A DNA stretch of 64,000 nucleotides from Bacteroidaceae bacterium (lineage in GTDB: Bacteria; Bacteroidota; Bacteroidia; Bacteroidales; Bacteroidaceae). The notes beneath the pieces are model-generated. The model did no database searches and was not told the origin of the DNA. It worked only from the letters and a program-made list of their open reading frames with translations. Location: positions 53,556-117,555 of the forward strand of contig JAFUFK010000026.1 in assembly GCA_017469925.1 (NCBI GenBank), read 5' to 3'. Positions 2,206-56,699 of this stretch are shown piece after piece (the stretch's first letter is position 1; every line of letters begins with the position of its first letter). The position numbers and the translations under genes were made by a program.

Positions 2206-2287
2206 TTGCCACCTGTGGCACACGTCTGTGCCACCCGTGGCACAGATTTGTGCCATCCATAGCACGCGCCCGTGCCACCCGTGGCAC
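2206..2287. repeat. Array A: four 16-bp palindromes at exactly 22-bp period
   Basis: Four units begin at 2206, 2228, 2250 and 2272. The consensus is GTGCCACCCGTGGCAC, with 7-bp arms and a 2-bp centre, separated by 6-bp unrelated spacers. Unit 3 (GTGCCATCCATAGCAC) carries changes in both arms. The array starts directly after the queA stop codon and upstream of the metalloprotease gene. It is one of several arrays with the same geometry but a different palindrome. Confidence 0.85.
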
Positions 2288-2290
2288 TTT

Positions 2291-3622
2291 CTACGTCGCT
2301 TCGGCGTCCGGTTTGGGGATAAGTATCGACGAGTCGCCGTAGCTGAGGAAGCGGAAGTCGTGGTCGAGGGCATACCGATAGACGCGCCGCCAGTCGTCGC
2401 CGATAAAGGCCGAGACGAGCAGCAGGAGCGTCGATTGCGGCTGGTGGAAGTTCGTTATCATGCGCTCCACGATGCGGTAGCGATAGCCCGGGGCAATGAT
2501 TATCTGCGTCGAGGCATGCAGCACGTCGAGGTCGTGTGCCTGCATGTAGGACAGCAATGCATAGAGCGGACCCACCCCCTGCCCCTCCCTTGTAGGGAGG
2601 GGAGTAGATAGTTCTGCCTCGTAGGGTTCCCACTGACTGACGTGGAGAAAGTCGCGCTCCTCCCTATTGTCGGGGAGGTAATCACTCTCCTCCCTACAAG
2701 GGAGGGGCAGGGGGGTGGGTCTGCTCTTCATGATTTTCCGCCCCATCCAGTACAGGCTCTCCAGCGTACGGACGCTGGTTGTGCCCACGGCAATGGCACG
2801 GCCCCCGTGGCGGATAAGGGCTTCTATCGTCTCGCGCCTGACGGCGATGTGCTCGGTGTGCATGTCGTGGTGGCCGATGTCGTCCGACTTCACGGGGCGG
2901 AACGTGCCGGCGCCCACGTGCAGGGTTACCTCCTGTCGTTCGATGCCTCGGCGGTCCAGTTCCCGGAGCACCCTTTCCGTGAAGTGCAGCCCCGCCGTCG
3001 GGGCGGCCACGCTGCCTTCAATCTTCGAATATACGGTCTGGTACGTCCGTTTGTCGCTCTCCTCGGTCGGTCGGTTGAGGTAGGGGGGTATGGGCAGTTC
3101 GCCCATGGCCTCCAGGATTTCCGACCAGGTGTAGCGGTCGGGCCATGCGAAGGTGACCAGGACACCCCCTCCCTCCCCATTACGGGGGAGGGCAGGGGAG
3201 GGGGTCCGTGTTGCGGTGACCGTTATCTCCTCCCCATTGATGCAGACCTTAGCCCGCAGGCTTCCTTGCTTCCACTTCTTCAGTCCGCCTACCATACACA
3301 GCCAGGCCGTGCGGCCGCGCTGGGCGAAGTTCTCCTGATACTCCACCGGCTCGGCGGGCTCGAGCACCAGTATCTCTACGCGCGCGCCCGTATCCTTATA
3401 GAAGTATAGCCGCGCCTGTATGACGCGCGTATTGTTCATCACCAGCAGGGCGCCCTCGGGCAGCAGGTCGGGCAGGTCGCAGAAGTGGCGTTCGCCAATT
3501 TGTCCCTGGTCGTAAATCAGCAGTTTGCTCTGGTCGCGTTCCGCAAGGGGGAACTTCGCGATGCGCTCGTCAGGGAGCGGGTACGTGAAGTCACGTATTT
3601 GCAGGTCCTTAGGGTCTTTCAT
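2291..3622 (-). CDS. queA: S-adenosylmethionine:tRNA ribosyltransferase-isomerase
   Basis: Cytoplasmic enzyme of queuosine synthesis. It transfers and isomerises the ribosyl moiety of SAM onto preQ1-tRNA to give epoxyqueuosine-tRNA. Recognisable blocks are the N-terminal FTYPLPDERIAKFP, MNNTRVIQARL, APTAGLHFTERVL, LHVGAGTFRPV, SQWEPYE, and the C-terminal TNFHQPQSTLLLLVSAFIG and FLSYGDSSILI. At 443 residues it is about 90 longer than usual for the family. The excess consists of three Pro/Gly/Arg-rich segments encoded by GC-rich palindromic repeats (2569-2604, 2657-2721, 3162-3210), all in frame. All conserved blocks remain, so the gene may still be functional. The start at 3622 gives the canonical N-terminus. 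Confidence 0.93.
   Translation of the reverse strand: MKDPKDLQIRDFTYPLPDERIAKFPLAERDQSKLLIYDQGQIGERHFCDLPDLLPEGALLVMNNTRVIQARLYFYKDTGARVEILVLEPAEPVEYQENFAQRGRTAWLCMVGGLKKWKQGSLRAKVCINGEEITVTATRTPSPALPRNGEGGGVLVTFAWPDRYTWSEILEAMGELPIPPYLNRPTEESDKRTYQTVYSKIEGSVAAPTAGLHFTERVLRELDRRGIERQEVTLHVGAGTFRPVKSDDIGHHDMHTEHIAVRRETIEALIRHGGRAIAVGTTSVRTLESLYWMGRKIMKSRPTPLPLPCREESDYLPDNREERDFLHVSQWEPYEAELSTPLPTREGQGVGPLYALLSYMQAHDLDVLHASTQIIIAPGYRYRIVERMITNFHQPQSTLLLLVSAFIGDDWRRVYRYALDHDFRFLSYGDSSILIPKPDAEAT
2569..2721. repeat. Inverted pair of GC-rich repeats inserted in frame in queA
   Basis: The arm at 2569-2604 and the arm at 2687-2721 are near-perfect reverse complements. Each contains a small hairpin around CTCCCT-TGTAG-GGAGGG. 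A third partial unit lies at about 2657-2680. The native queA block encoding SQWEPYE lies between the arms. On the coding strand they read STPLPTREGQGVGP and RPTPLPLPCREE, which are not QueA-like. The same repeat family occurs outside genes at 20885-20931 and 21044-21090. Confidence 0.8.
3162..3210. repeat. Third GC-rich palindromic insertion in queA
   Basis: The palindrome ACCCCCTCCCT...AGGGCAGGGGAGGGGGT centres on about 3180 and adds residues like TPSPALPRNGEGGG to QueA. It is related in composition and core to the repeats at 2569-2721. The length preserves the reading frame. Confidence 0.7.
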
Positions 3623-3677
3623 CCGTTCAATTCGTAAATATCGCTACGAAGATACGAAATAATTGGGGAATTTTCGT

Positions 3678-3685
3678 TATATTTG
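3678..3685 (+). promoter_or_regulatory. Putative -7 box (TATATTTG) of the C1 peptidase gene
   Basis: TATATTTG matches the Bacteroidetes housekeeping -7 consensus TAnnTTTG. A TTG triplet lies about 13 bp upstream. It sits 39 bp before the start codon at 3725. Confidence 0.55.
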
Positions 3686-3724
3686 CCCCAGTATATGCGC
3701 TAAAACAACTTAAATCGTACCGAT

Positions 3725-6700
3725 ATGAAGCACTTCGTGTCTGCCTTGCTGGCTATCGCACTACTGATGCCAGCCCAAGCAAGCGCCCAGGAATGGGACC
3801 GCGAGAAGTATCCCGACTACAATCCCGAGTTCAGTAACCCCGACCCCGTCCTGCTGAAACTCTTTGCAAAGGAACCCGCAGGCAAGCCCCTGACGCGCCG
3901 CCGCGCAAAGGCCATGGCCGAGGCGGCCGGACTGCCCGACCACGTGAACAATGCCAACTCCCGGTATTTCCCTCCCGTCTTCAACCAGAGCGGAGGCTCG
4001 TGCGGCTCGGCTTCGCGTATTGCCTACATGTTTACGCACGAACTCAACTCCTACCGCGACATCGACTCGAGCACGCCCGAGCACAATTACCCGACCCACT
4101 TCGTATGGCTCCTGACCAACGGAAACTCGGGCAAGGATGCCTTTGTCACCCATGTCGGCGTACCTACGTCGGCCACCTATGGTGGGCGCACCTACAGCTC
4201 CGTCTTCGGCTATTGTGTCGAGACCGACGACAATTTCGGCTGGATGACGGGCTACGACAAGTGGTTCGAGGCCTTTGGCAACCGCATGACCGCCCCCACC
4301 ACCAACCCCTATAGCCTCGGCACCGAGGAGGGACGTCTGGCCGCAAAGGCCTGGCTCTACAACCATGCCGGCGACGAGTCGTACCACTGTGGCGGACTCA
4401 TCGGACTCGGCGTGGCCTCGGGCGGCAAGTGGGAGAACATTCCGAAGACCGAGCAGAACGATGCCATCGGCGTCACGGGCATGAAGTACGTCAAGCAGTG
4501 GGGAACCTCCGTTGACCACGCCCTGACGATGGTGGGCTACGACGACCGCATCGAGTTCGACCTGGACGGCAACGGCATCTACGGCGAAGAGTCGAAGGAC
4601 GAACGCGGAGCCTGGATTATCGTTAACTCGTGGGGCTCCAGCTGGTGCAACAACGGCTTCATCTATTGTCCCTATGCCCACGCCGGTCCCGCCTTTACCT
4701 CCGAGGGTAAACTCAACGGCTGGTGGGCAGGCGAACTCTATCACACCCGCAAGGACTATCGCCCCCTGCGCACCATCAAACTGCTCATGGACTACAGCCG
4801 CCGCAGCGAACTGAAGCTGCAAGCCGGCATCAGTGCCGACCTCTCGGCCACCAGCCCCGAGCGCATCATCGACATGCACCACTTCCGCTTTGCCGGTGAC
4901 GGCAAGAATGGCAATACGCAGCCCGCCCCCGAGGTGCCCATGCTCGGCAAGTGGGCCGACGGCAAACTGCACACCGAACCGATGGAGTTCGGCTACGACC
5001 TGACCGACCTGACGAGCGGCTACGACCGCAACCAGGCCCTGAAGTACTTCTTCATCGTCAACACCCGTAGCTGGGGCGAGGGCGAAGGCCATATCTACGG
5101 AGCCAGCATCATGGACTACGAGTACGATACCGAGGGCATCGAGACCCCCTTCGACCTGGGCACGACGGGCCAGGTAGAGGTGAAGAGTGCCGGCGAGCAG
5201 ACCGTCATCAGCGTCATCGTCCACGGGGCCGCCTTCAATGCTCCGCAGAACCTTGCCCTCTCGGCCGGCACGCTCCGCTGGGACATCCCGATGGCTTCGG
5301 GCCACCAACTGGCGGGCTACGCCATCTACCACGACGGACAGAAATTGGCCACCCTGGCGGCCGACCAACGCACCTATCCTGCCACGGAGTCGGGCACCTA
5401 TGGCGTATCGGCCCTCTACGAGGGCGGGGCCGAGAGTGCCCAGACGACCGTCAACAGCATCGTCGAGAAGCAGCCTGTCAATCAGGTGGTCAACTTCGCA
5501 AAGGGTGGATTCTCCATCCCCGACATCTTCAATAGCGCACGCGAGGAGTGTACCATCGAGTTCTACATCAAGCCCAACAGCCTCTCCAACTACAACAATA
5601 TGTTCGGCCCCGGATGGGGTACCTTCCATGGCCATTGCAACACGGGCGGCGCCTTCACCGTCGGCTGGGATACGGGCGACCAACGTATCGCTGCCAGCAC
5701 GACGAAACTGAGCGTCGGCAACTGGACTCACGTGGCCATCGTCGTGAACAAGAACAGGATTATCCTCTACATGGGCACTAACCAGGCAGGCGCCGTCACC
5801 TCTACGTCGCATAGCGGCGTCGGGGGCTTCGGCAACCTTGTGTTTACGGGTTCGGGCGCCAATTCGCAGGACGCCTCGTACGACGAGATTCGCATCTGGG
5901 ACCATGCCCGCACAGCCACCGAGATTAAGAACACCTACAACCGAGAGTTCTATGGTGACGTCATGCCTGATGGCCTCCTGGCCTATTACAAGGGCGACAT
6001 CATCGAACAAGACGGCCTGTCGTACCTGCGCGACTGCGTAGGCGGCCATCATGCCCTGCTGGCCAACAGCAACTGGAAGCAGGAGGTTCCGGCCAAGCAG
6101 CCTACACTCCACCGTCCGAAGGACAACACAAACATACTCGAAATCGACGAGCCCGAACAGCCTGTCTATGCCGGCATCCCCGTGACGCTGACCACGACGC
6201 GTGGCGACGCTATTCGCACCCTGGCCTGGGACGTGCCCAGCCTGGGCATTTCGGATTGGCATATCACCAGCCCCGCCCTCACGTTCCCCGAGGTAGGCGA
6301 GTACGAGGTGTCGGTCAAGGGCTCCGACTATGAGGCCGACGGCATTGACAGCGTAGCCCGCGAGATTACGGCCACGCGCACCATCACCGTGGTGCCAGCC
6401 CCCGCGCTCGACGCCTCCTTCACGGCTACGGCCACCGACATCCCCAGCGGCGACCGCGTGAGTTTCTCGGTATCTAACCCCGTCTCGGGCTTTGCCTATA
6501 CGTGGGACATGCCCGGCGCCGACGTCGAACGCGCCAGCACCATCACGGCAGCAGCCTCGTATCAGCGGGCCGGCACCTACACCGTGACACTGACTGCCAC
6601 ATCGCCCACGGGCGAGAAGGCCCAGAAGAGCCTGCAAATCGTCGTAAGCGAGGTGGCTCCCCTGGCCGACTTCACGCTAAGCGAACCCGTTGTCCTGAAG

Positions 6701-7777: not shown

Positions 7778-7804
7778 CACTAAAAAACGAAAAAAGTACA
7801 TGAA

Positions 7805-7847
7805 GGGGCGACATATTCTTGCCCTTCGTGTGTATATAATAGTAGAA
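7805..7847 (+). promoter_or_regulatory. Shared leader element L1 before a TlpA gene
   Basis: The block GGGGCGACATATTCT, then CGTGTGTATATAATAGTAGA, recurs almost unchanged at 11036-11080 and in diverged form at 9044-9087, each time before a thioredoxin-fold paralogue. The start codon follows about 17 bp later. In the 11036 copy the first half can pair as GGGGCGA/TCGCCCC. It could be a promoter with an operator or an RNA leader. Confidence 0.55.
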
Positions 7848-7863
7848 AGACGAAACAAACGCC

Positions 7864-8892
7864 ATGAAGAAAACCATCCTTTCCCTGCTCCTTGCCCTCG
7901 CAACCACGGCAGGGGCACAGGTGCATTACCGCATCGAGGGCACCGTGGCGAACGCACTGCCGACGGATACGCTATTGGTGATTGACATCGAAGAACAGAG
8001 TGTTGTGGACACGCTCATGCTGAGGGACGGGCAGATACAGCCTAAGGAGGGCACGTTGGAGGCACCGACCATCTGTGCCCTGCAACGCGAGGGGAGTACG
8101 GGATGGATTATGGCCTTCGTGCTCGAAGATGGTGTAGTCAGCCTCGACATCGACCTGGAGGAAGGCGTCCTGCTTCGTATGGATGGCACTCCGATGAACC
8201 GCGACTTGGCTCCGCTCATTCAATATACTGCCAACCCCGGAGGGGCGTACGACCCGGCGCGAGAACTGGAGTATGCACGGCATACCTATGCGATAGTGCA
8301 GGACATCGTCCGTAAGCATCCCGACGACATCCTCGGCGCGTTTGCCATCAACATCACCCGGATGCGCTTCACAGCCACCGAGGGGCTGGCCCTCATCGAC
8401 CTGTTGAGTGAACGCCAACGCGAGAGCCTACAGATGCAACGCCTACGGGAATCATTAGTCTTGTCCGCCGAGACCGACGAAGGACAGCCGTATCGTGACC
8501 TGTCGGGTGTCGGGCGCGATGGGCAGCCCGTTAGCCTAAGCCAGTACGTCGGTCGTGGGCAGTATGTGTTGGCCGATTTCTGGGCCTCATGGTGTGGTCC
8601 CTGTAAGGCCCGTATGCCACAGATTATGGACATCGAACGCCGTTACCGCGACCGTGGCCTGTGTGTCGTCGGCATCACAATGAAGGAACCCGTCGAGGAT
8701 TCGGAGCGAGCCGCCCGGCAACTCGGCCTCACTTTCCCGCAGATTTACCAGTCGTCCCCCATGTCCACCTACGGCATCACGGCCATTCCTGCCCTCATCC
8801 TCTTCGGCCCCGACGGCACCATCCTCCTTCGTCGTGCTCTCAGCCCCGAGGCCATTGAGGCCCGGCTCCTCGAACTCTTGGGGGGAGAGTAG
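7864..8892 (+). CDS. Exported TlpA-like thioredoxin-fold protein with DUF4369-type N-terminus (paralogue 1)
   Basis: 342 residues. It has the signal peptide MKKTILSLLLALATTAGAQ, then a beta-rich DUF4369-like domain (about 21-120), a helical linker, and a thioredoxin domain (about 205-342) with ADFWASWCGPCKARMP. The redox cysteines are Cys244 and Cys247, and a cis-Pro motif lies in TAIPALILF. Proteins of this architecture are periplasmic or membrane-attached thiol-disulfide oxidoreductases. The specific partner is unknown. It is first of six paralogues between 7.8 and 20.7 kb, all in one direction but with separate leaders rather than one tight operon. Confidence 0.88.
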   Translation: MKKTILSLLLALATTAGAQVHYRIEGTVANALPTDTLLVIDIEEQSVVDTLMLRDGQIQPKEGTLEAPTICALQREGSTGWIMAFVLEDGVVSLDIDLEEGVLLRMDGTPMNRDLAPLIQYTANPGGAYDPARELEYARHTYAIVQDIVRKHPDDILGAFAINITRMRFTATEGLALIDLLSERQRESLQMQRLRESLVLSAETDEGQPYRDLSGVGRDGQPVSLSQYVGRGQYVLADFWASWCGPCKARMPQIMDIERRYRDRGLCVVGITMKEPVEDSERAARQLGLTFPQIYQSSPMSTYGITAIPALILFGPDGTILLRRALSPEAIEARLLELLGGE

Positions 8893-8906
8893 GGAGCCTC
8901 CTTTTT

Positions 8907-8989
8907 TAACATAGGTATTTTGCGGGCTCAAAATAGGTATGTTGAGGGGTGCAAAATAGGTATGTTGAAGGCTCAAAATAGGTATGTTG
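8907..8989. repeat. Array B: four 16-bp palindromes at 22-23-bp period
   Basis: Units begin at 8907, 8929, 8952 and 8974, with consensus CAAAATAGGTATGTTG (arms CAAMATA/TATKTTG, GG centre) and 6-7-bp spacers. The array starts 14 bp after the stop codon of TlpA paralogue 1. Two more units of the same sequence family lie at 21619-21657, before the HU-like gene. Confidence 0.83.
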
Positions 8990-9043
8990 TTTTTTCATGC
9001 TTATAAGGGTCGCTTTTCAAGGTTAGTAATTTTTGCAATATCA

Positions 9044-9087
9044 GCGACATATTTTCGTTATATATGTGTATATATAGGTAGAGAAAC
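9044..9087 (+). promoter_or_regulatory. Shared leader element L2 (diverged copy)
   Basis: GCGACATATTTTCG, then ATGTGTATATATAGGTAGAG, aligns without large gaps to the elements at 7805-7847 and 11036-11080. The GC-rich hairpin half is lost here. The start codon lies about 30 bp downstream. Confidence 0.45.
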
Positions 9088-9117
9088 ATACCTATAACCA
9101 TAAAGCATTACAGACAG

Positions 9118-12512: not shown

Positions 12513-12574
12513 TGCTAAGTCCATGACACCAAATTTGTATAATTAGCACCATTCGCCGATAAAACCCATGAAAT

Positions 12575-12689
12575 AATTCATGAAAAATTTGTGGCTAATT
12601 CATGATAATTATATGTTTAAGAAAGAAAAAATATATTCTTTATGTTTAACACGAATGACCATGAATTAGCCACGAATTAACCATAAATT
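12575..12689. repeat. Hairpin element F1 with 22-bp-spaced palindromic units in both arms
   Basis: A 115-bp inverted repeat. The left arm has units at 12575 and 12597 (AATTCATGAAAAATT type) and the right arm has units at 12653 and 12675 (AATTAACCATAAATT type). Both unit pairs are exactly 22 bp apart, and the two arms are reverse complements over about 45 bp. The AT-rich loop, GTTTAAGAAAG...TTCTTTATGTTTAAC, is itself palindromic. Two further copies lie at 14725-14839 and 14857-14971, again between TlpA paralogues. Confidence 0.85.
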
Positions 12690-14695: not shown

Positions 14696-14724
14696 GGCCG
14701 ATACAACAATAAATCCATGAAAAT

Positions 14725-14839
14725 AATTCATGAAAAATTTGTGGCTAATTTATGATAATTATATGTTTAAGAAAGAATCCCCATATCATTTTTGTTTAAC
14801 ACGAATGATCATGAATTAGCCATGAATTAACCATAAATT
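14725..14839. repeat. Hairpin element F2
   Basis: Second copy of the 115-bp hairpin, with unit starts at 14725, 14747, 14803 and 14825 (22 bp apart within each arm). The loop is diverged (AAGAATCCCCATATC) relative to F1, while the arms are conserved. Confidence 0.83.
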
Positions 14840-14856
14840 ATAAAGGCAGTAATAAT

Positions 14857-14971
14857 AATTCATGAAAAATTCGTGGATAATTCGTGATAATTATATGTTT
14901 AAGAAAGAAAAAATATATTCTTCATGTTTAACACGAATGACCATGAATTAGCCATGAATTATTCATGAATT
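14857..14971. repeat. Hairpin element F3
   Basis: Third copy, directly following F2 after 17 bp. Unit starts are at 14857, 14879, 14935 and 14957. It ends at the promoter of TlpA paralogue 5. The loop matches F1 better than F2 does. Confidence 0.83.
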
Positions 14972-19630: not shown

Positions 19631-20686
19631 ATGAACATAAGAAAGCCCATCCTTCTACTCCTCCTCCTCGCCCTCGCAACGAAGGGGGCATGGGGCTTCC
19701 GCTACCGCATCGAGGGTAACGTGGGGACTTCGGACTTCACGGGCTGGCTCTATATCCAGGACCAAACGGAGAAGGACCCACGGAGGGCGGACAGCCTGTG
19801 GGTGGAGGCCGGAGAGATACGGTCGTGCGAACTGAAGGCCAAGAAGCCGCTCATTGCACTGCTGCATAGTCGCGACATCAGCATCCAGTTCCATCCGCTC
19901 TTCATCGAGGAGGGCACGATACGCTTCGTCGAGGCCCCGCTGGCTCAGCGCCGCATGGCCTTCCAGGGCACGCCCCTGAATGACGAGTGGCGACAATACG
20001 CCCTCCGTGCCGACTCGCTGGCGCGACTGTTCGACGAGGGCCGCATCACGAAGACCGAAGCCTTCCGCTCTCTGGACAGCATCAGCGAACCCGTCGTGCG
20101 GCGGCATCGCGACGACCTGCTCGGGGCCTACGTGGCTTCGACGATGGACGAACTGGGCACCGACCGCCTCGTCCAGTACGTCGAGATGCTCTCCCATCGA
20201 ATGCAGAGCAACCACATCGTGTACGAGGTCGTCGGCCCCCACCTCGTCGCGCGCCGGACGGCAGAGGGGCAGCCCTTCATCGACTTCGAGGTGGAGTACG
20301 AGGGACAGCGCCATCGCCTCTCCGACTACGTGGGCCGAGGGCAGTACGTCCTGGTCGATTTCTGGGCATCGTGGTGCGGCCCCTGTCGTCAGGAGATACC
20401 CACCCTCATCGAAGCCTATGAACGATACCGCGACCGTGGCCTCGTCGTCCTGGGCATAGCGGCGTGGGACGAGCCCGCCAACACCCTGAAGGCCATCCGT
20501 GACCTGCATATCCCTTACCCCCAAATCCTTAATACCCAAAAGGTCGCCACCGACCTCTATGGCATCGTGGGCATACCGCACATCATCCTCTTCTCGCCCG
20601 ACGGCACCGTCCTCGTTCGCGGCCTCCGCGGCCATGAGGTACTGACGACGCTCGCCGGCATCCTCGGAGATGGGGCGGAAAGGTGA
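19631..20686 (+). CDS. Exported TlpA-like thioredoxin-fold protein with DUF4369-type N-terminus (paralogue 6)
   Basis: 351 residues with signal peptide MNIRKPILLLLLLALATKGAWG. A DUF4369-like domain (about 23-120; FRYRIEGNVGTSDFTGWLYI), a helical linker (about 120-215) and a thioredoxin domain (about 220-351) follow. The thioredoxin domain has LVDFWASWCGPCRQEIP (Cys249, Cys252) and VGIPHIILFSPDG as the cis-Pro loop. Its sequence and length are closest to paralogue 1, so the 7.8 and 19.6 kb genes are probably direct duplicates separated by the others. It lies 24 bp after the kinase-like gene and may be cotranscribed with it. Confidence 0.88.
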   Translation: MNIRKPILLLLLLALATKGAWGFRYRIEGNVGTSDFTGWLYIQDQTEKDPRRADSLWVEAGEIRSCELKAKKPLIALLHSRDISIQFHPLFIEEGTIRFVEAPLAQRRMAFQGTPLNDEWRQYALRADSLARLFDEGRITKTEAFRSLDSISEPVVRRHRDDLLGAYVASTMDELGTDRLVQYVEMLSHRMQSNHIVYEVVGPHLVARRTAEGQPFIDFEVEYEGQRHRLSDYVGRGQYVLVDFWASWCGPCRQEIPTLIEAYERYRDRGLVVLGIAAWDEPANTLKAIRDLHIPYPQILNTQKVATDLYGIVGIPHIILFSPDGTVLVRGLRGHEVLTTLAGILGDGAER

Positions 20687-20723
20687 GCACCTTCCTTGCC
20701 CATCCTTATAACCCTGCCTTTTC

Positions 20724-20853
20724 AAGGTTACTAATCATCGTGCCTCAAGATTAGTAATCTTATGCCCTTAAGATTAGTAATCTTATGACCTTAAGATTAG
20801 TAATCTTCACGCCTCAAGATTAGTAATCTTAATGGTTCAAGGTTACTAACCTT
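20724..20853. repeat. Array C: six 15-bp palindromes at exactly 23-bp period
   Basis: Units start at 20724, 20747, 20770, 20793, 20816 and 20839. The four central units are the perfect palindrome AAGATTAGTAATCTT (7-bp arms, single central G). The outer two are AAGGTTACTAATCAT and AAGGTTACTAACCTT, the last with compensating changes in both arms. Spacers are 8 bp and unrelated (ATGCCCTT, ATGACCTT, CACGCCTC, AATGGTTC). The array lies 37 bp after the stop of TlpA paralogue 6. A lone degenerate unit is at 9019-9033. Confidence 0.9.
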
Positions 20854-20884
20854 CAAACTTCGAGGTTCCGATGTCAGCGGACGA

Positions 20885-21288: not shown

Positions 21289-21508
21289 TGGTCAGCCCTT
21301 CGGGCTTCAACATCCCCGATGATGCTCCTTTATCTTCCTGCCCTTCGGGCTTTGTCGTCCCGATGATGCTCCTTTATCTTCCAGCCCTTCCGCCCCCTTT
21401 TTTACAGATTTTAATAAACGTTGCCCTGTATTTTACATAATTTAAGTTATTAATCTTTAATAAAATACAATATATCTTAAATGGTTTGGATACGTGGCGA
21501 TAAGGCGC

Positions 21509-21613: not shown

Positions 21614-21618
21614 GAATT

Positions 21619-21657
21619 CAACATAGGTATGTTGAGGGGTGCAAAATACCTATTTTG
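21619..21657. repeat. Array B': two palindromes of the array-B sequence
   Basis: CAACATAGGTATGTTG (21619-21634, perfect) and CAAAATACCTATTTTG (21642-21657, perfect) are 23 bp apart. The spacer resembles the array B spacer (AGGGGTG), linking this site to 8907-8989. Confidence 0.75.
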
Positions 21658-21729
21658 CAACGGCACCCTCGGGACGATGAACTCTGATGCCTGTATTAAC
21701 CTATTTAATAACCTTAAAATCATAAGATT

Positions 21730-22251
21730 ATGCCTATCAAGTATAGTTTGTCTGCTCGCCCGACGAATCCGTCGGACAAGAACGCTGAAAAGCGAGTGTA
21801 TCCTATGGCCCAGTACACGGAACTTGTGGACCTTAACGAGTTTGCGCGCCATATTCAGGCGCATGGAAGTCCCTTCACGCGCGACGTCATCACGGGTGTG
21901 CTGACCGCTGCCGTGGATTGCCTGCGCGAGCAACTCGTGGCCGGCAAGAAGGTGAACTTCGGTGAGATGGGGGCTTTCTATCTGACCCTGCGCAGCGAGG
22001 GCGTGGAGAGTGCCGAGGCATTCGACCCGAACGTCCACGTGAAGCACATCTACGTGCATTGGGAACGGTCGAAGTTCTTCGCCGACCTGAAGGGCGACAA
22101 GGACCTCAAGTGGGAATATACCCTGACGCGTAAGGAAATGGCCGAGGCCCGGAAGGAAGCCAAGCATGAGGCCACGGAGGCCGCACACGAAGGCTCGAAC
22201 TCCGGCGGCGGCACTGGCGGATGGGCTGACCCTGGCGACATCACGGAGTAG
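21730..22251 (+). CDS. HU-like DNA-binding protein (Bacteroidetes histone-like family)
   Basis: 173 residues. The core (about 1-125) is the HU/IHF-type fold seen in Bacteroidetes: MPIKYSLSARPTNPSDK, LNEFARHIQAHGSPFTRDVITGVL, AAVDCLREQLVAGKKVNFGEMGAFYLTL and a basic segment near HVKHIYVHW. The tail (about 126-173) is Ala/Glu/Lys- and then Gly/Ser-rich and probably disordered. It should be a nucleoid-associated or element-associated DNA-bending protein. Its gene lies between two repeat-rich stretches and downstream of two array-B-type palindromes. Confidence 0.85.
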   Translation: MPIKYSLSARPTNPSDKNAEKRVYPMAQYTELVDLNEFARHIQAHGSPFTRDVITGVLTAAVDCLREQLVAGKKVNFGEMGAFYLTLRSEGVESAEAFDPNVHVKHIYVHWERSKFFADLKGDKDLKWEYTLTRKEMAEARKEAKHEATEAAHEGSNSGGGTGGWADPGDITE

Positions 22252-36380: not shown

Positions 36381-37076
36381 ATGAACAAGAAAACCATCAC
36401 ACGGTTCATCAAAATCGGCTTTGTGCCATTGCTTTGTTTTTACGTGATAGCCTTAACCCTGCGCCTGACAACGATAGCCCTTGCCAACAAGTATCCAATG
36501 CTTAGGGAGAACTATCTGTTTCAATTATCTACGGGCCTCGGGCCTGCCATCGGAGCTTTTGTCGCAATGGCCGTATTCAAGCGTAAGACAGAATATACCC
36601 TCACGGGCAAGTCTGTATGGAAATCTGTTGTGACGATACTCGTGCCGTGCCTCGTGTTCGGTATTATCGGAGGATGGAATATGGGGGGAATGTGCTTGTT
36701 GGCCTTTACGTATGGGCTATTGGAAGAATACGGTTGGCGAGGCTTTCTGCAATATGAACTTCGGGGACTGCCCATGTGGCAGTACGTCCTTATCATCACG
36801 GTCATGTGGTTTCTGTGGCATCTGGATTTTAACCAACGTAACCTATTGCCCTTCTTCGTGCTTCTGCTTTTTGCCTCATGGGGAATAGGAAAGGTGATGA
36901 CCGATACTCATTCGCTGCTTTTCTGCGCTGCATTCCATGGCATCGTCAATTTCTCGAAACACGGCCTGCTCGCCGATACCACTTTCCTCATCACCTTCGT
37001 CAGCGTTATCGCGTTTTGGATAGTAATTTGGTATTTCATTTATTTGCCAAAGAAGCAGAATATACAAAACAGATAA
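36381..37076 (+). CDS. CPBP-family intramembrane metalloprotease-like protein
   Basis: 231 residues, started at the ATG (36381) that begins the first hydrophobic block (MNKKTITRFIKIGFVPLLCFYVIAL). About seven membrane helices. The conserved motifs are EEYGWRGFLQYEL (EExxxR type), FLWHLDF (second motif His) and FCAAFHGIVNF (third His). In bacteria such Abi/CPBP proteins act in self-immunity or protein processing at the membrane, and the substrate here is unknown. It follows the ATPase gene by 55 bp in the same low-GC block. Confidence 0.85.
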   Translation: MNKKTITRFIKIGFVPLLCFYVIALTLRLTTIALANKYPMLRENYLFQLSTGLGPAIGAFVAMAVFKRKTEYTLTGKSVWKSVVTILVPCLVFGIIGGWNMGGMCLLAFTYGLLEEYGWRGFLQYELRGLPMWQYVLIITVMWFLWHLDFNQRNLLPFFVLLLFASWGIGKVMTDTHSLLFCAAFHGIVNFSKHGLLADTTFLITFVSVIAFWIVIWYFIYLPKKQNIQNR

Positions 37077-37402
37077 GATTACAGGCAAGGGTAGATAACT
37101 TTATGGCTGCATGAGCCGAACGTCGGTCACCCTTCTTCCGTTTATGGCATATCCAGTTGGCTGAGAAACGCAAGGCTTTCCTCGCCAGAGACTACGTCGG
37201 CATGCTTGCCATCCCACAGGACGAGCATGGGCAATCCCGTAGGAATAGGCACTCCCTCGTCGCCGACTTCGCCGAGAGCGAAAACGTCCTTTCCGTCCTG
37301 AAGAACGAGAAAGCGAAGGCCATCCGCTTTACCACACTCGATGCCCTGTGCCGTGCCCTCGACTGCCAGCCTGGCGACCTGCTGGAGTACGTCGGGGACT
37401 GA
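37077..37402 (+). pseudogene. Remnants of a RAYT 3' end and of an XRE gene
   Basis: 37077-37127 is a diverged copy of the last 50 or so bases around the RAYT stop (37413-37462). Shared blocks are GATTACAGGCAAG and CTGCATGAGCCGAACGTCGG. Between the two copies, from about 37285, the sequence becomes a close copy of the XRE gene at 29072: LKNEKAKAIRF, TLDALCRALDCQPGDLLEY, then TGA at 37402. Its N-terminal half is replaced by unrelated DNA. A composite of mobile-element debris. Confidence 0.7.
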
Positions 37403-37436
37403 CACCAGACAAGATTACAGGCAAGAGGAGGTGGTT

Positions 37437-38480
37437 TTATGACTGCATGAGCCGAACGTCGGTTGTTGTGTTGCAGATGGTGCGAGCCATGTCGTTGAGC
37501 GTCAGGCATTGCGAGCGGCTGATGGTGCGGCTGTCGGTGTGGTGCTCCCATGGTGCCAGAACGAGGAGCGTCCCTGCGGCACACGCCTCGAAATAGCGAC
37601 CGTGGGGCTTCTCGTACTCGCCAAAGCCGTTCTCACGCAGTAGGATGAGGGGCATGCCCTGCTCTATGGCGGCCTGCACGATAGCCTTTTCGCCCGGGCT
37701 GATGCCAGGCGTGACAAGCACCGCCCCCTCTTCGCAACGCTGTTGCATCCGTGTCGTTTCCTGGGCAATCTCCTCTGCCGTGGCGCGTCGGTGCATGAAC
37801 ACTTGCAGGCGTTCGGTGCGTTTCAGCAGGAAGATATTGCCCATGGAGGCGTACTCTTGTCCGCCGATGCGCAGGTGCTGACGAATGCGGAACAGGTCGG
37901 GCTTCATGCGTTTGATGGCCAGTCGGCGCGGGTTGTCTTGGATGTAGGCGTGCAGTGTCTGTAGTTGTCCCTTGTGCATGAGCACGCGGTCGTGGTAGCC
38001 TTTCTCCCATAGCGAGGGGCGGCGGGGAGGAGAGGAGGGAGAGGGCAGCGGCGCTGAAGCGCCACTCACAGGACGAAAGGGAGCGCCATTCACAGGACGG
38101 GGGAGGGTGTCCTGTTTGCTGCGCTTTAGCGCGGCATCGCTCTCCTGCCACCAGGCTTGGCTGCACTTTGCTTTCAGGCTGGCGACGACCCGCCCGAGGT
38201 GCTGGGGCATCCACTCACGCACGAAGAGCAGGAGATGTATGTGGTCGGGCATGACGACGTAGTCGAGTATCTGCAGTTGAGGGTAGCGCTGAGGCAAGGC
38301 TTGTATCTCCCGTTCGACACATGCCCCTAAAGGGGAAAGGCTGATGCGGGCCTGTAGGGGTGTGCTTGCCAGTTGACCGAAACGTGGAACGCGCCCGTCG
38401 GTGACGAGCGTCAGCATGTAGATACCCCTCTCGTTGTAGTCGTGATGGCTCAGCCGCCGATGCATGGTCTGGTTTGCCAC
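37437..38480 (-). CDS. REP-associated tyrosine transposase-like (Y1/HUH) protein with extra C-terminal domain
   Basis: 347 residues. The N-terminal half (about 1-200) is a Y1-type transposase: YNERGIYMLTLVTDGR, the HUH-like VMPDHIHLLLFVREW, a Leu-rich helix, PSLWEKGYHDRVL and the catalytic-Tyr region HAYIQDNPRRLAIK. Such RAYT proteins act on hairpin REP sequences. The rest (about 210-347) is not transposase-like: MGNIFLLKRTERLQVF, EGAVLVTPGISPGEKAIVQAAIEQGMPLILL and GRYFEACAAGTLLVLAPWE suggest a Rossmann-like DprA/SLOG-type domain. A repetitive insert (24-bp tandem repeat, about 38050-38105) adds PVNGAPFRPVSGASA. It lies 13 bp after xth on the same strand. Confidence 0.82.
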   Translation of the reverse strand: MANQTMHRRLSHHDYNERGIYMLTLVTDGRVPRFGQLASTPLQARISLSPLGACVEREIQALPQRYPQLQILDYVVMPDHIHLLLFVREWMPQHLGRVVASLKAKCSQAWWQESDAALKRSKQDTLPRPVNGAPFRPVSGASAPLPSPSSPPRRPSLWEKGYHDRVLMHKGQLQTLHAYIQDNPRRLAIKRMKPDLFRIRQHLRIGGQEYASMGNIFLLKRTERLQVFMHRRATAEEIAQETTRMQQRCEEGAVLVTPGISPGEKAIVQAAIEQGMPLILLRENGFGEYEKPHGRYFEACAAGTLLVLAPWEHHTDSRTISRSQCLTLNDMARTICNTTTDVRLMQS

Positions 38481-43507: not shown

Positions 43508-43568
43508 GGATAAATTATGGAAACGTGAAAATAAACTTGTTTATTTTATGTTAAAAAGGGTCAGAAAC

Positions 43569-43649
43569 AACCAGTCACTGGTTTCGCCGAAACCAGTGAC
43601 TGGTTAAATTTTAAGGAGTGACTGGTTTCAGCGCAACCAGTGACTGGTT
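43569..43649. repeat. Array D: four 15-bp palindromes at exactly 22-bp period
   Basis: Units start at 43569, 43591, 43613 and 43635. The consensus AACCAGTGACTGGTT (and AACCAGTCACTGGTT) is a perfect palindrome with a single central base. Unit 3 has a degenerate left arm (AAGGAGT). The 7-bp spacers (TCGCCGA, AAATTTT, TCAGCGC) are unrelated. The array lies between the PL11 gene stop and the esterase promoter, 10 bp after the PL11 stop on the minus strand. Confidence 0.9.
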
Positions 43650-49769: not shown

Positions 49770-49827
49770 GAAATAATTAATGATATGTCAAAGAATTAGA
49801 GTTAATTGTGCCTATAGAAGTCCCAAA

Positions 49828-49869
49828 ACAATCGGGTGGGCCTCGTGTGATTGTGGTCCACCCGATTGT
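49828..49869 (-). terminator. Hairpin terminator of the 1262-residue gene
   Basis: ACAATCGGGTGG and CCACCCGATTGT form a 12-bp perfect stem around an 18-base loop, 21 bp after the stop codon of the minus-strand gene ending at 49890. Confidence 0.75.
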
Positions 49870-49889
49870 CGGTTATGGTCTGTTTGCAA

Positions 49890-52800: not shown

Positions 52801-53678
52801 GTGGCATCACCAGTGTAGAAAGCGTATGAGTTGCCATAGCTACCGTATGTTCCTACATACTGGTTGGCTTCGAATGTCACCAGGTTACCACTTTTGGTAC
52901 CCTTCACCCAGGCATCGGGGAAGTAGAAACTGAAACCCTGAACGTAAACCTCGTTGCCCACTACGGCTATAGCGGCGGCGCCGTTGCCTGCCTCTCCGTC
53001 TTCATTCTCATAGGTGAGCGAGTACTCCACAGGCTCAGCCCCTTCGGGCAGTGTTACCAGTTCGGGGGCGGCGGGCTCTTCCTTAGAGAATACAGGTGAA
53101 CTCCAATAGCAATATGCGCTAATGGCATCAGCAGCTCCGCTTTCGATAATCAGGGCGGTGTTGGAAGTCAGCGTGCCAGCTTCTGGGTCATAAGTGAACA
53201 CGATGTCACAGACGTTTGAACCATCGTTGCTACCCACGAGATACTCGGGGCCGTATTCGTCCTCTCCGACTAACTGTCCATTGGCGAAGGTGATGGTGTT
53301 GCCATCCATGGTACCCAGGATTGTGCCATCCTCAAACCAATAGGCCAGACCTGTAATGGTGACATTGTTGCCATCGAAGGTTACCTCGATAGAAGACATC
53401 TCGGACGTTGCATCCTGCCAGCCACTACTTGTTCCGGCGTAGAACGTTCCGCTTGTGGTGTAGAACGTTTCCGACGTGCCACCGTCGGCAATTACGCCAG
53501 GAGCTTGGCGGACAGTCTTCTTGACTGCACCTGGAGCCGTCTTTGGCAACTTGACGATGCTCGTGCTAATGGGTTTGTTTGCCCGGACAAGGTCTTTCGG
53601 GGCCATTAGCAAAGGCTTTTGTGCGTACGCAAACACTCCTATAAGTGCAGCAAGCAGAAATGATGTAAATCTTTTCAT
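49890..53678 (-). CDS. Very large exported multidomain protein of unknown function
   Basis: 1262 residues. The start at 53678 is preferred because it begins the signal peptide (MKRFTSFLLAALIGVFAYAQ); a minus-strand box TACCTTTG is at 53724-53731. The N-terminal third (about 60-330) has two or three copies of the beta module shared with the 527-residue protein (VYVQGFSFYFPDAWVKGT...QYVGTYGSYG). Then come an all-helical FIVAR-like segment (AIEEAKAVLDNEEATLEELNEAIEALKAAEEAY), carbohydrate-binding-like beta domains (VDDYGFPINVTLADGRYTL; FTQTVEGLKQGLYKVSIQAFYRNG) and two Ig-like repeats near the end. A sorting-like tail reads FDVAGRVAKADTKGLVIQQVRQ...IKVVRK. The FIVAR and sugar-binding-like parts suggest surface attachment to plant polysaccharide; this is inference. 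Confidence 0.75.
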   Translation of the reverse strand: MKRFTSFLLAALIGVFAYAQKPLLMAPKDLVRANKPISTSIVKLPKTAPGAVKKTVRQAPGVIADGGTSETFYTTSGTFYAGTSSGWQDATSEMSSIEVTFDGNNVTITGLAYWFEDGTILGTMDGNTITFANGQLVGEDEYGPEYLVGSNDGSNVCDIVFTYDPEAGTLTSNTALIIESGAADAISAYCYWSSPVFSKEEPAAPELVTLPEGAEPVEYSLTYENEDGEAGNGAAAIAVVGNEVYVQGFSFYFPDAWVKGTKSGNLVTFEANQYVGTYGSYGNSYAFYTGDATFTFDPGTESYSAEGEIYGVLGGSYYDGHYFNPVLKKVIEKAVMPAAPSISEIYASQYGDEIVFDVPTIDVNGDGLLTSKLYYQFFYDVARQVSPLTFVAGEDYPYLAEDISEIPYGFKDADGQGYDFYDGEIFLNMDHSTWNKIGIKSIYYGGGEKNETEIQWYTISEYPEIVARQNLEAEIATAESLVDEEEKFVGLITYQQAIEEAKAVLDNEEATLEELNEAIEALKAAEEAYNKANQSGEEEYTGNAQWVASEQGYTNASLVTDITIVDGYITGVFDQGEGSNAPAYYTSGSALRAYSNNTLTITASDEVEKITKIEITFASTNYTGSYASAPEGYSISGAVGTWEGEATSVTLTNTATGQSRIRSINVTYVLKHEDDAPIAEGIYYIYNKLTDKFLSRGDAWGTRAVVDDYGFPINVTLADGRYTLTNVDGSGPYGDDYWMYADAGGDRTRTYAAERTQGGFYLRGALAEPNNRVYVYTKDDADKYAVAGNATPDENITDDAQTVWQFLTQAERDLIVAAHEKAAKEAALEATGFDENGDVYEGTPAELTFKTGSAWQFAAVRSGSSATTNENGTEVYQGTGNFTQTVEGLKQGLYKVSIQAFYRNGFNEAVAANYDLGYNLSVAYLEANGSTAPVKSWGADRASDTNPNSMAEAAALFAEGKYKSETYAVVGEDGVLNLRVAVPSFINGGWFIIDNVTYKQVSNEEIEEEQPMNIIDLIEITPAEGEVTSLQNFQITFGGEVVTVNEDLFPTLDGQDGGIAVSEDGKTVSIDFEEAVTAAGNYVLEIPAGAILYKGKALDPLSFKYNIKGADYTINPAEGEVEKLETFVITFNNYTVRATDEASAILINTETEAEVEASVVTEINGGRAIYISLPEVTAAGTYELIVMSGSIQKDIDDSFVPELTFHYTIKAGDGINLAGNQTETIRTFDVAGRVAKADTKGLVIQQVRQADGTLKTIKVVRK

Positions 53679-53723
53679 AAGCGTTTTTTTTGAATGAAAC
53701 AATACATTTTACCTAAATCGACC

Positions 53724-53731
53724 ACAAAGGT
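53724..53731 (-). promoter_or_regulatory. Putative -7 box (TACCTTTG) of the 1262-residue gene
   Basis: Reverse complement of CAAAGGTA, 46 bp upstream of the start. The AT-rich DNA from 53732 to 53846 holds nothing else I can support. Confidence 0.58.
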
Positions 53732-53846
53732 AAGTATAATTTGTGATTGATTAACAAAAAGTTACGAACAAATGTGTAAAATTGTCACAAAATCGCCATT
53801 CCGGGCGACATTTTGTAACCTAAATAGGGTATTTTATAAATAAATC

Positions 53847-55199
53847 CTATTTCAAAAGCACGTCGAGGTCGGAAATGCTCCCAATGAAACCTCGGGCCAA
53901 TGGCATCGTGGCGCGCATGGGACGGCCCGGACGCATCGAAGGACGGGTGGGCAGAGCCTCGAGGCGGACAAAGCGTGCCTTGCGGCTTTCGAGGTTGACG
54001 GCAGCCCAATAGGGTAGCCAGTTGTCTTCGACGGCCTTCTCCCAGGTTGTTCCGTCAAGGCTTGTATAGAAGGCGTAGCGACGAACTACTTGTCGGGCAC
54101 GTGCCTCTTCCCGTGGGATGGCAATGAAGCCCTTGATGTCCTGCATCTGTCCCATATCGACGGTCAGCGAGGTAGAGTCCTTCGTGACTTTCCATTCGCT
54201 CTTGTCGGCAAAGAGTCCCTCACGGGGCGTTTCGCGCCATTCGCCTGTCGCGAAATTGATGTCGAAACGCTCACGATAATGGAAGCGGCAATCCGTCCCC
54301 TCGAATTCGATGGGGAAGATGATGGTCTTCGACTCGGGCAGACGTGGGTCTTGCCAGCGGTCGCCTACGTAGAGGTAAGTCGTCCGCTTGCTCCCCTTGA
54401 TTTCCAGTATGGCGGCGGCCTGCGTATCATAGGCCAGGTCGTTGCCAATGTTCTCCAGGGGTGTCCATCCGCGTTGCAGGTCCTGTGTGTAGGCCATCTT
54501 GCACTGGTTGGGGTCCCAGCCCGAGCAGGCCGAGTTGAACATAAAATAGGTATCGCCTTCGCGCACGATAGCGGGTGCCTCGCGCTGCTGATGCGGAAAG
54601 AGTTGGGTATGGCTGACGGCCTCGTGGTAGTCGGGACTCAGGCGGAAGAGGCCCAAGTGTTGATTCTCTTCCGTCGTGGAGATGAAATAAGCCGTGCCGT
54701 CGGTGTCCTGGAATACGTTGCAGTCGCGGCTCTTGATGCCCAGCGGTCTTCCGCTCCACACAAGATGATAGGTACCATCGACCGTTTCGCTCTCGAAGCA
54801 TGCCGCCTCTGATGCCCCATAGTCCTTCGATTCGTAATGGCACCATACGACAAAGCGCCCCGTCTGTGCGTTGTGCATCAGTTTCGGGCGCTCTATCATG
54901 CGGCTTTGGCCCAGTTCGGTCGTCGTGACCCCATTCTGGATAATCTTCTTCACAAAGTGCCAGTGCACGAGATCGTCGGAACGATAGAGGTTGACGTCGG
55001 GGTTCCATGAGTTGCCTCGGTCTTCGCCCACCATATACCACGTACCGCCGAGTCGTACGAACCCAGGTGCGTGAGCCTGTACGGAGTTTCCGTTGTCGTC
55101 GAGCCACAGTTGGCCGTTCTGTATGGTTGTCCACTGGTCGTTGGCCATGGCGACTACTGAAGTCACAAGAAGGAGTAGAAGGGTGAAAGTCTTTTTCAT
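53847..55199 (-). CDS. GH43-like exported glycoside hydrolase with discoidin-like C-terminus
   Basis: 450 residues, started at MKKTFTLLLLLVTSVVAMA (55199) where the signal peptide begins. The catalytic five-bladed propeller (about 20-325) has AHAPGFVRLGGTWYMVGEDRG (first acidic region), MIERPKLMHN, SRDCNVFQDTDGTAYFIS and REAPAIVREGDTYFMFNSACSGWDPN (general acid region), with YVGDRWQDPR. This pattern matches galactan-active GH43 enzymes. The C-terminal 110 residues resemble an F5/8 type C module (VDMGQMQDIKGFIAIP, YAFYTSLDGTTWEKAV). It probably trims galactan side chains of rhamnogalacturonan I, consistent with the PL11 and CE12 neighbours. Confidence 0.83.
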   Translation of the reverse strand: MKKTFTLLLLLVTSVVAMANDQWTTIQNGQLWLDDNGNSVQAHAPGFVRLGGTWYMVGEDRGNSWNPDVNLYRSDDLVHWHFVKKIIQNGVTTTELGQSRMIERPKLMHNAQTGRFVVWCHYESKDYGASEAACFESETVDGTYHLVWSGRPLGIKSRDCNVFQDTDGTAYFISTTEENQHLGLFRLSPDYHEAVSHTQLFPHQQREAPAIVREGDTYFMFNSACSGWDPNQCKMAYTQDLQRGWTPLENIGNDLAYDTQAAAILEIKGSKRTTYLYVGDRWQDPRLPESKTIIFPIEFEGTDCRFHYRERFDINFATGEWRETPREGLFADKSEWKVTKDSTSLTVDMGQMQDIKGFIAIPREEARARQVVRRYAFYTSLDGTTWEKAVEDNWLPYWAAVNLESRKARFVRLEALPTRPSMRPGRPMRATMPLARGFIGSISDLDVLLK

Positions 55200-55249
55200 A
55201 CAATAACACACATTTACTCCTTTGACAGACAAACGGTTACTTCGTTTAA

Positions 55250-55912
55250 TCAGAATTGCAGAATCTCGCCTCCGTCGCTGTCGGCATATTCGCGAAGCAG
55301 TTCTTGGATGAACTGGGCACAGGCCACGGTCTGTGCGCGATTGCCGTCGTATCCGTTGACGATGGCCAGCAGTCGGGTAGTCGAGAGAGAGAGTTTCGTA
55401 CGCTCGTGGTCGCTGGTCGGTGTGCCAATTCCGCCCATTTCATCGCGATAAACGGGCAATCCCTGGATGTTCAGCGGCCCGCGTCCGATGCCTTCGTAAG
55501 GCTCGCCCTCGCGCCCGATGCCGAGGGTCAGTCGGGTGCCCTGAATCTTGTCGGCATCGAAGCCGCCGATGCTGTATCCGTAGCGGATAGAGGCCAGGTT
55601 GATGAGGTCAACGAGCGTCGAGACTCGGTACAGGTCGTGCCCTTTCAGGGTGCGGCGCACCAGCGCTTCGCTCGACGGGCGGTAGCGGCTGGGGTCCTTG
55701 CCGCATCGTTTATAGGCTTCGCGCGTAGCCTCGATGGCGGGCATCTGCTTGATGCTCTCGGTGGTGTACTTTTGCCGATATTCCTCGATGAAATGGGCGA
55801 TTTTTGACCATAGGGCCTCGTTCTCGTCCGTATTCCTTACGGACGCAAGTACAGCGGCGCCCACCATTTCGGGACACCGCTGCCTGATTTCTTCGCTTAT
55901 GATTATTTCCAT
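55250..55912 (-). CDS. B3/B4 tRNA-binding-domain protein (PheT-B3/4-like)
   Basis: 220 residues, cytoplasmic, a free-standing B3/4 domain as in the phenylalanyl-tRNA synthetase beta chain. Motifs are IEEYRQKYTTESIKQMPAIEATREAYKRCGKDPSRYRPSSEALVRR and LVDLINLASIRYGYSIGGFDADKI, ending ERTKLSLSTTRLLAIVNGYDG. Stand-alone members are suspected of editing mischarged tRNA or acting on free substrates, but are not well characterised. It is separated from the GH43 gene by 50 bp and from the lipoprotein gene by 12 bp. Confidence 0.88.
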   Translation of the reverse strand: MEIIISEEIRQRCPEMVGAAVLASVRNTDENEALWSKIAHFIEEYRQKYTTESIKQMPAIEATREAYKRCGKDPSRYRPSSEALVRRTLKGHDLYRVSTLVDLINLASIRYGYSIGGFDADKIQGTRLTLGIGREGEPYEGIGRGPLNIQGLPVYRDEMGGIGTPTSDHERTKLSLSTTRLLAIVNGYDGNRAQTVACAQFIQELLREYADSDGGEILQF

Positions 55913-55924
55913 AACCCTGAATCC

Positions 55925-56500
55925 TTATTCCTTCTTCATGTTCACTCCGCGGACGCACTTGTGCTCCTGTACGGTCGGCATGGCTTCGTGGCTGGTTGCC
56001 GTGCTGTCGGTGCCGAACTTCTCGCCCTTCACGTAATAGTAGTAGCCGCCATATCCGTAGTCGTCCCAGTAACGGTCGTAGTTGCGCAGGTTGAAGTGGG
56101 TCTGGTTCTGCAGGGTGTAGTAGTCGGCGATGTAGCCACTGAAGTAGTTGTACGAGAGGCGGTAGTCAACGATGGCACAGTCGAGACCCGGGTCGTCGAA
56201 GGTCATGTAGATGATGCCGTCGCGTATGCGGTAGTCGAAGTAGTGGGTTATGGAACCCCTGTAGTAGTAATCGACCTCTATGCCGCGGCCGTAGCTGTAG
56301 CCCCAGCCACCGGGCATGAACTCAATCTCGCTGCCCCTTGCCCGTTCGCCGTCGATCCACATGTCGAGGTCGCCAAACCAGTGTCCTCTAACGTCGTAAC
56401 CGATGCCCTCGTCGGGGTCCATTTCACAACTCGTGAAGCCAAGGCATGTCATGAGCATGAGGCCCATCAGCCAGAACTTGTTTGTCATCATCTTCTTCAT
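55925..56500 (-). CDS. Lipoprotein of unknown function
   Basis: 191 residues. The signal peptide ends in the lipobox LGFTSC (Cys about residue 26), so it is a lipoprotein. The mature part is very aromatic and acidic (YSYGRGIEVDYYYRG, YDRYWDDYGYGGYYYYVKGEKFG). It resembles short beta-sheet lipoproteins common in Bacteroidales without assigned role. A minus-strand -7 box TAACTTTG lies at 56530-56537. Likely cotranscribed with the B3/B4 gene. Confidence 0.8.
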   Translation of the reverse strand: MKKMMTNKFWLMGLMLMTCLGFTSCEMDPDEGIGYDVRGHWFGDLDMWIDGERARGSEIEFMPGGWGYSYGRGIEVDYYYRGSITHYFDYRIRDGIIYMTFDDPGLDCAIVDYRLSYNYFSGYIADYYTLQNQTHFNLRNYDRYWDDYGYGGYYYYVKGEKFGTDSTATSHEAMPTVQEHKCVRGVNMKKE

Positions 56501-56639
56501 AGTCGTATCGTTTTAGAGGTTTGATGTTGCAAAGTTAGTGACTTCTTTCCGTATCTCCAAAGGGGAACCCCTAAAACCTCGGAGGATTTTCCCGACCGCT
56601 TCGTAGGGATATGCCCCAGGGTTCTCGACCTTGTCATCG

Positions 56640-56699
56640 TTCAATCACGATCGAACGTTCGTTCAATCACGATTGAACGTTCGTTCAATGCGCATCGAA
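56640..56699. repeat. Array E: three 16-bp palindromes at exactly 22-bp period
   Basis: Units start at 56640, 56662 and 56684. The consensus is TTCAATCACGATTGAA (7-bp arms, 2-bp centre). Unit 3 (TTCAATGCGCATCGAA) has coordinated change in both arms. Spacers CGTTCG are identical here, extending the palindrome to GTTCAATC...GAACGTTC. The array sits between the divergent promoters of the lipoprotein gene and etfB, 47-140 bp from either start region. Confidence 0.85.

Follow-up and report, generated by a model that had tools for sequence, protein, structure and literature searches.

Why should palindromes of unrelated sequence, lying between the genes of one bacterium, all be spaced about two turns of the helix apart? 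This question is raised by a 64,000-nucleotide stretch of a Bacteroidaceae genome (assembly GCA_017469925.1, contig JAFUFK010000026.1, positions 53,556 to 117,555), referred to here as the window, in which six intergenic arrays carry short palindromes. Our preferred answer, to which we give a probability of roughly 0.45, is that the arrays are mobile intergenic cassettes built around a cluster of operator-like sites, arranged on one face of the DNA and marked in each family by a palindrome of its own. None of the six is assigned to a strand. Array A (2207..2287) has four GTGCCAC(NN)GTGGCAC-type units at a 22-bp step, and array B (8908..8989; 8911-8989 as called by Tandem Repeats Finder, TRF) has four CAAMATA(GG)TATKTTG-type units at a 22/23-bp step. 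Array C (20722..20855) is made of AAGATTA(G)TAATCTT units at a 23-bp step, with outer units of the AAGGTTA(C)TAACCTT type, while array B' (21618..21659) comprises two CAAMATA-family units. Array D (43568..43649) repeats AACCAGT(S)ACTGGTT four times at a 22-bp step, its third unit reading AAGGAGTGACTGGTT, and array E (56637..56701) places three TTCAATC..GATTGAA-type units at a 22-bp step between divergent genes. The positions, arms and 22/23-bp spacing of the original prediction were all confirmed by direct reading; TRF also called five of the arrays, the sixth being the two-unit B', which was read directly.

The arrays far exceed chance expectation. A search of 798 kb of the source genome for pairs of similar palindromes 12-60 bp apart, each with 7-bp arms and at most one mismatch, found 79 pairs, compared with 1.8 per copy in five first-order Markov shuffled copies. 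The members of 40 pairs lie 22 bp apart, 13 pairs are at 23 bp, 13 at 44 bp, one at 46 bp and 12 at other distances, and for spacings of 21.5-23.5 bp the comparison is 53 pairs against 0.2 per Markov copy (798 kb). Among the 130 TRF rows of period 13 bp or more in the same sequence, 36 have a period of 22, 11 of 23 and six of 44. With genes called by a crude hexamer model, on which both this split and the orientation classes given below depend, periods of 22, 23 or 44 bp account for 168 of 291 intergenic and 8 of 120 intragenic tandem repeats in all sets pooled, totals that count some genomes twice (e.g. L134 = L331 and L129 = L332). The same bias is seen in the source genome (42/70 intergenic and 2/18 intragenic, overlaps removed), in stretches of related genomes (50/94 and 0/44), in the queA surroundings of close named relatives (15/24 and 2/12) and at other named loci (61/103 and 4/46). 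In G026, which belongs to another family, 100 kb of sequence yielded no palindromic 22/23 row. A class of arrays with a fixed period and changing sequence is thus supported, as had been predicted, in the source genome and in its relatives. An 11-bp period as the basic unit was considered and rejected, as its intergenic rows (four in the source genome and seven in the genus) fall below the counts for periods 7 and 8. Intergenic runs of this period, one helical turn, are present in L103, in L344 and at some of the panB 3' ends described below.

What changes from array to array is the family, and the claim of a different palindrome at each locus had to be abandoned. Dispersed families, not locus-specific palindromes, make up the arrays of the source genome. 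The AACCAGTNACTGGTT pair pattern of the AACCAGT family has 19 forward matches and 16 arrays there, and no matches in the other 138 genus genomes. The GTGCCAC family occupies at least eight loci of the source genome, and in its sampled part CAAMATA is found at three and AAGATTA, AAGATAG, TTCRATC and AGTCAGC at two each. The TGCCAYNNRTGGCA (TGCCAY) pair pattern, which represents the family of array A, matches 9 of 139 genus genomes, and among the matches listed its spacing is exactly 22 bp everywhere, with 21 to 23 permitted by the pattern. Relatives carry other sequences on the same period, such as CGCACC(GT)GGTGCG in G024. Within the 798 kb, all 21 exact AACCAGTSACTGGTT (AACCAGT) units lie within arrays, in seven clusters, as do all 15 exact GTGCCA....TGGCAC units, in five. 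One exact AAGATTA match and one TTCRAT match are isolated under the strict pattern and have degenerate neighbours at array spacing; in G024, 4 of 43 units are isolated under the strict pattern.

Whole arrays recur as blocks. In the AACCAGT family 13 copies were read; ten measure 81 bp, and nine of the ten keep a single order of units, AAGGAGTGACTGGTT being the third; the spacers of the window copy (array D) are unlike those of the other 81-bp copies. The other three measure 147 bp (seven matched units), 103 bp (five matched units) or are clipped by a contig end. A leader of several lengths, ending in CGCGTTGGA, lies upstream of 8 of the 13 copies, a 51-bp tail is common to three, and five have neither. 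Flanks are also shared by three near-identical arrays of G131 (a tail of at least 40 bp and a short leader), which lie close to contig ends. In L015, L008 and L086, inner units sit in a single 22-bp register with outer CTTAGG-type units. Downstream of the array block in L086 is a sequence (~4091-4335) that we take, from its look, to be a cobalamin riboswitch. Similar-looking proteins (by eye TPR and HTH-like) are encoded at 17441-18949 of L006 and 1536-3017 of L024, with an AACCAGT array at the 3' end of each.

Some orthologous sites are filled in one species and empty in most of its relatives. The stop codon of queA (2291-3622, minus strand) is about 4 bp from array A, and we followed this site through a scan of named genomes (the best 80 of 558 loci, by title mostly gut or rumen Bacteroidaceae or Prevotellaceae) and through genus genomes. 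An array lies directly behind the queA stop in 12 genomes, namely the source genome, 8 of the first 18 loci inspected, L201, G005 and G012. Together they display about eight palindromes at a step of 22 or 23 bp, some linked by a CCA..TGG core, with those of L136 and L138 symmetric in their inner half only. By eye, which is also how the G012 array (L254) was read, L131 and L135 look like array remnants, and L132, L139 and L141-L146 have no array behind queA. TRF found a 22/23 row in three of 15 queA loci from genus genomes (G000, G001 and G005). At panB (30 of 57 matches fetched, 25 with full flanks), palindromic arrays are present in G000 (GTGCCAC, 22 bp) and in G053 (AAGATTA, 23 bp), the latter belonging to the family of array C; G043 and G045 have non-palindromic 22-bp rows, G045, G046 and G049 have 11-bp rows, and TRF detected no such rows at the remaining full-flank loci. 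For the site beside a kinase that looks, by eye, to be FGGY-type, 30 loci were fetched out of 41 matches, 26 of them with full flanks. G000 carries a palindromic array here, G003 and G057 have 22-bp rows that are not palindromic, G067 has a pair of palindromes at a 22-bp step, and the remaining full-flank loci have no rows; G061, whose flank is incomplete, shows a TGCCAY array some 130 bp away from the kinase gene. No 22/23-bp repeat was found at the ETF site of array E in six of seven relatives, the seventh (G020) having a different, weakly palindromic 22-bp row, and none at a GDSL site in five of five. Where the GTGCCAC family occupies one orthologous site in three species, its arms are nearly constant (one change) and its spacers and flanks differ. 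This kept site, taken together with the filled and empty ones, indicates that both inheritance and turnover occur.

What is conserved within a unit bears on how it is read. Over 82 TGCCA-family units, each arm position is 94-100% constant, the centre and spacer vary and the flanks are graded. These units were anchored on exact arms, and the pattern behind the next test fixed Y and R at positions 5 and 8, which inflates arm constancy and leaves the test of independence unaffected. In 73 units, C or T at position 5 is independent of G or A at position 8 (Fisher p 0.46); complementarity is near chance level at the centre and in the outer degenerate pairs. It is likewise unremarkable over 20 GTGCCAC units from the source genome, matched with the centre left free (summed z -1.15), and that of variable pairs is below expectation for AACCAGT (54 units, z -4.2) and G024 (85 units, z -7.7), in part because the units of these families have an orientation, as their asymmetric centre shows. 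Such centres are often kept: 75 of 85 G024 units have GT or AC and six have GC, the centre is G or C in AACCAGT and GG or CC in CAAMATA, and both unit orientations occur within arrays. A CTTAGG row of the complementarity test (414 loosely matched units) was discarded as mostly chance matches. The original prediction had also argued from paired changes in the outer units. Examples exist, but in the 79 palindromic arrays compared both arms changed at 27 positions, where independence predicts 20, and 11 of the 27 are complementary against about nine by chance, with no excess family by family either; the argument is unsupported, and compensatory evolution of the arms was rejected. Half-site independence and the lack of excess complementarity together imply that, in these families, two half-sites are kept rather than their pairing. 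A protein dimer reading duplex DNA therefore appears, from these patterns, to fit better than hairpins. The available text of PMC8501960 gives 11 bp per turn for negatively supercoiled bacterial DNA in vivo, by which 22 bp is two turns. The earlier view was that the arrays suit a DNA-binding dimer or a palindrome-processing enzyme better than RNA; binding to one face of the duplex is supported on these grounds, and by the terminators described below.

We propose that each site is an inverted repeat which a dimeric protein would recognise in duplex form. With a step of 22 (or 23) bp, equal to two helical turns in supercoiled DNA, successive dimers would lie on one face and might bind side by side, in a cluster most often of four units. 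Copying would place the whole cassette, with or without a short leader or tail, between genes, in many cases right after a stop codon. Families would differ in palindrome and presumably also in the protein that reads it, so that one site could hold different families in different species. The protein might be a transposase, its repressor or an architectural protein; cooperative binding, the manner of copying and any benefit to the host may be supposed in the same conditional spirit. A bolder extension, which we find doubtful, is that these are mobile elements of a new class, carrying the phased binding-site cluster as their payload. The families would co-evolve with their own proteins, and at preferred sites downstream of genes one cassette would take the place of another, at times within an older array and in its register, such that the set is rewritten with each new family and the 22-bp lattice stays.

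Several observations weigh against the mobile-cassette proposal. Of 44 period-22 rows in relatives, 26 have fewer than six of seven arm pairs and are thus weakly palindromic, and with the non-palindromic rows at panB (G043, G045) and the kinase (G003, G057) and the weakly palindromic one at the ETF site (G020), they imply that the 22-bp period is shared more widely than the palindromic symmetry. Since the G131 arrays share flanks and sit near contig ends, they may be copies of a longer repeat. Unit number also shifts by whole units: L021 (~8198-8288) has a copy of array B' with similar flanks, upstream of an apparently HU-HIG-type gene, and this copy holds four units, exactly two units or 44 bp more. 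The arm constancy of the TGCCA family is, as noted, inflated by its anchoring, and the pair beside its core (-1/14) is correlated (71/73 against 54 expected), because species differ there (GTGCCA versus TTTGCCA). Finally, no binding protein or transposase was identified in this analysis as a partner of the arrays.

The rival that survives best, though we judge it unlikely, is that the arrays are elements like repetitive extragenic palindromes (REPs) and their paired form, REPINs, moved by REP-associated tyrosine transposases (RAYTs) that recognise single-stranded hairpins. The window contains a RAYT-like Y1 transposase gene (37437..38480, minus strand), a possible array partner that scores 25.1 bits against Pfam Y1_Tnp as a protein (cut-off 23), 20.4 bits in a genome search and 48.8 bits against NCBIfam NF047646, under the cut-off of 80; contig 6 of the source genome has a second. 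These two genes have AACCAGT arrays at distances of about 5.1 and 4.7 kb, a proximity with a chance probability of about 0.003 by a hand estimate made after the fact. In G003 a palindromic array with a 22-bp step comes to within about 70 bp of one RAYT gene, and REPs as described in the available text of PMC3733652 are likewise intergenic, of several families and often behind genes. However, a period-22 TRF row was found in the 1.5-kb flanks of only 3 of 30 fetched RAYT loci (L041, L059 and L067) and of neither RAYT of the source genome. G011 and G012 have period-22 arrays, and G024 dense arrays, with no RAYT match, although in incomplete genomes such absence is not proof, whereas G026 has eight RAYT matches and, in 100 kb, no palindromic 22/23 arrays. 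A GTAG or CGTC tag beside the arms, as in REPs, is absent from the 82 TGCCA-family and 81 G024 units profiled, and the complementarity of variable pairs is at or below expectation. Because arrays and RAYTs fail to co-occur across the genomes compared, we rejected the RAYT as sole driver and retain it as a rival. Carriage by phages or plasmids was also rejected: the viral contigs scanned hold no AACCAGT pairs and TGCCAY pairs on one contig, and the RAYT protein has no plasmid match. By eye, a stretch of about 50 bp occurs twice beside the window RAYT (~37070-37120 and 37408-37465).

We consider it quite unlikely that the arrays are neutral minisatellites produced by slippage, with 22 bp set by the geometry of replication or repair. 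This explanation gains from the whole-unit variation in number, from the many weakly palindromic 22-bp arrays in relatives and from unit types that share one 22-bp register. Slippage alone, however, accounts neither for one period across unrelated sequences nor for its rarity inside genes, and it leaves the dispersed blocks with conserved order, and constant arms beside free spacers, without a cause. If the arrays were groups of sites for site-specific recombination, each with an asymmetric centre, this would explain why such centres are kept in G024, AACCAGT and CAAMATA and why both orientations occur in arrays, but the centre of TGCCAYNNRTGGCA is free, and we give this reading little credence.

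The position of the arrays relative to genes could suggest a role in RNA. Twenty-three arrays of the source genome have at least three units, all of them outside called genes; tandem genes flank 11, divergent genes six and convergent genes four, and two are at an edge. The statement that most arrays directly follow a stop codon was not confirmed: in tandem pairs 11 of 11 are closer to the upstream stop, but 6 of 23 arrays are between divergent genes, including the array at 56640. Avoidance of promoters is a claim we tried and do not make, as the orientation classes roughly match the share of intergenic bases. Terminators or strings of hairpins in 3' untranslated regions are the least probable reading, for although tandem arrays are nearer the upstream stop and no terminator was found before the array in 14 of 20 gene-to-array junctions, a strong one comes first in the other six, the L013 array is flanked by two, six arrays lie between divergent genes, half-sites vary independently, and a TPP riboswitch (60428-60528, plus strand, 70.3 bits) is the sole match in the window at Rfam gathering scores.

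Other features of the window lie around the arrays. Array B comes after the end of an AhpC/TSA-thioredoxin-like gene (7864-8892) that has a paralogue of 36% identity at 19631-20686, and each of the two is trailed by an array of a different family. Array B' is upstream of an HU-HIG gene (21730-22251) and array E of an ETF-domain gene (56800-57687). TRF also reported 10-13-bp repeats rich in CATGAATTA or AATTCGTG at 14712-14971 and 12567-12689, together with a 132-bp repeat, and a 44-bp repeat with CAGCCCTTCGGGCTT hairpins at 21293-21390.

Among known systems, multi-operator clusters and iterons have a series of sites for proteins on the same side of the DNA, spaced by about two turns. The arrays as proposed here share this geometry, but they are dispersed and replaced between species, and no linked regulator or replication gene was identified. 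What emerges is a kind of short intergenic repeat that holds its spacing while its sequence can be exchanged, present in one genus and, more widely, in Bacteroidales genomes from gut and rumen. This offers a way to the proteins that may read the arrays, through DNA-binding proteins whose variation follows the palindrome families.

REPs, REPINs and bacterial interspersed mosaic elements (BIMEs), as far as the available texts of PMC3733652 and PMC6006769 describe them, are also short intergenic palindromes of several families, clustered and often behind genes, and RAYT genes are present in the genus as they are in REP and REPIN systems. Unlike these elements, the arrays have no GTAG/CGTC tag in the families profiled, sit on a fixed 22/23-bp lattice, do not track RAYTs in the genomes compared and show no excess of base-pair covariation.

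The nearest named element that we found is BrickBuilt of Porphyromonas gingivalis, which the arrays appear to resemble. The literature searched, which leaves out most subscription journals, contained no other Bacteroidales tandem palindromes with a 22-bp period. In the available text of PMC4596501, BrickBuilt is a 23-nt intergenic array with a leader and tail at 19 dispersed loci, with one unit sequence in one species, 1-22.8 copies and reported terminal inverted repeats; by eye, none were noticed around our arrays. The idea of an unnamed element class therefore stands in part: the excess in the genome and its relatives supports a class, but BrickBuilt is named, and the AACCAGT and G131 arrays have shared flanks as it does. 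Both are dispersed intergenic tandem arrays of Bacteroidales with a variable copy number, and either may be preceded by a terminator. BrickBuilt has its leader and tail in part of its copies, which parallels the AACCAGT leader (8/13) and tail (3/13). Its published core, CATARTAT, is similar by eye to CCATAGTATGG of the 23-bp queA arrays, and no array unit here is identical to its 23-nt unit, AGAYCATARTATCCTCTCRTRTG, in a by-eye comparison without an alignment score. The arrays differ from it in having many families per genome, mostly four units, many clear palindromes and different families at one site in different species, and they link the isolated BrickBuilt to a broader, testable class.

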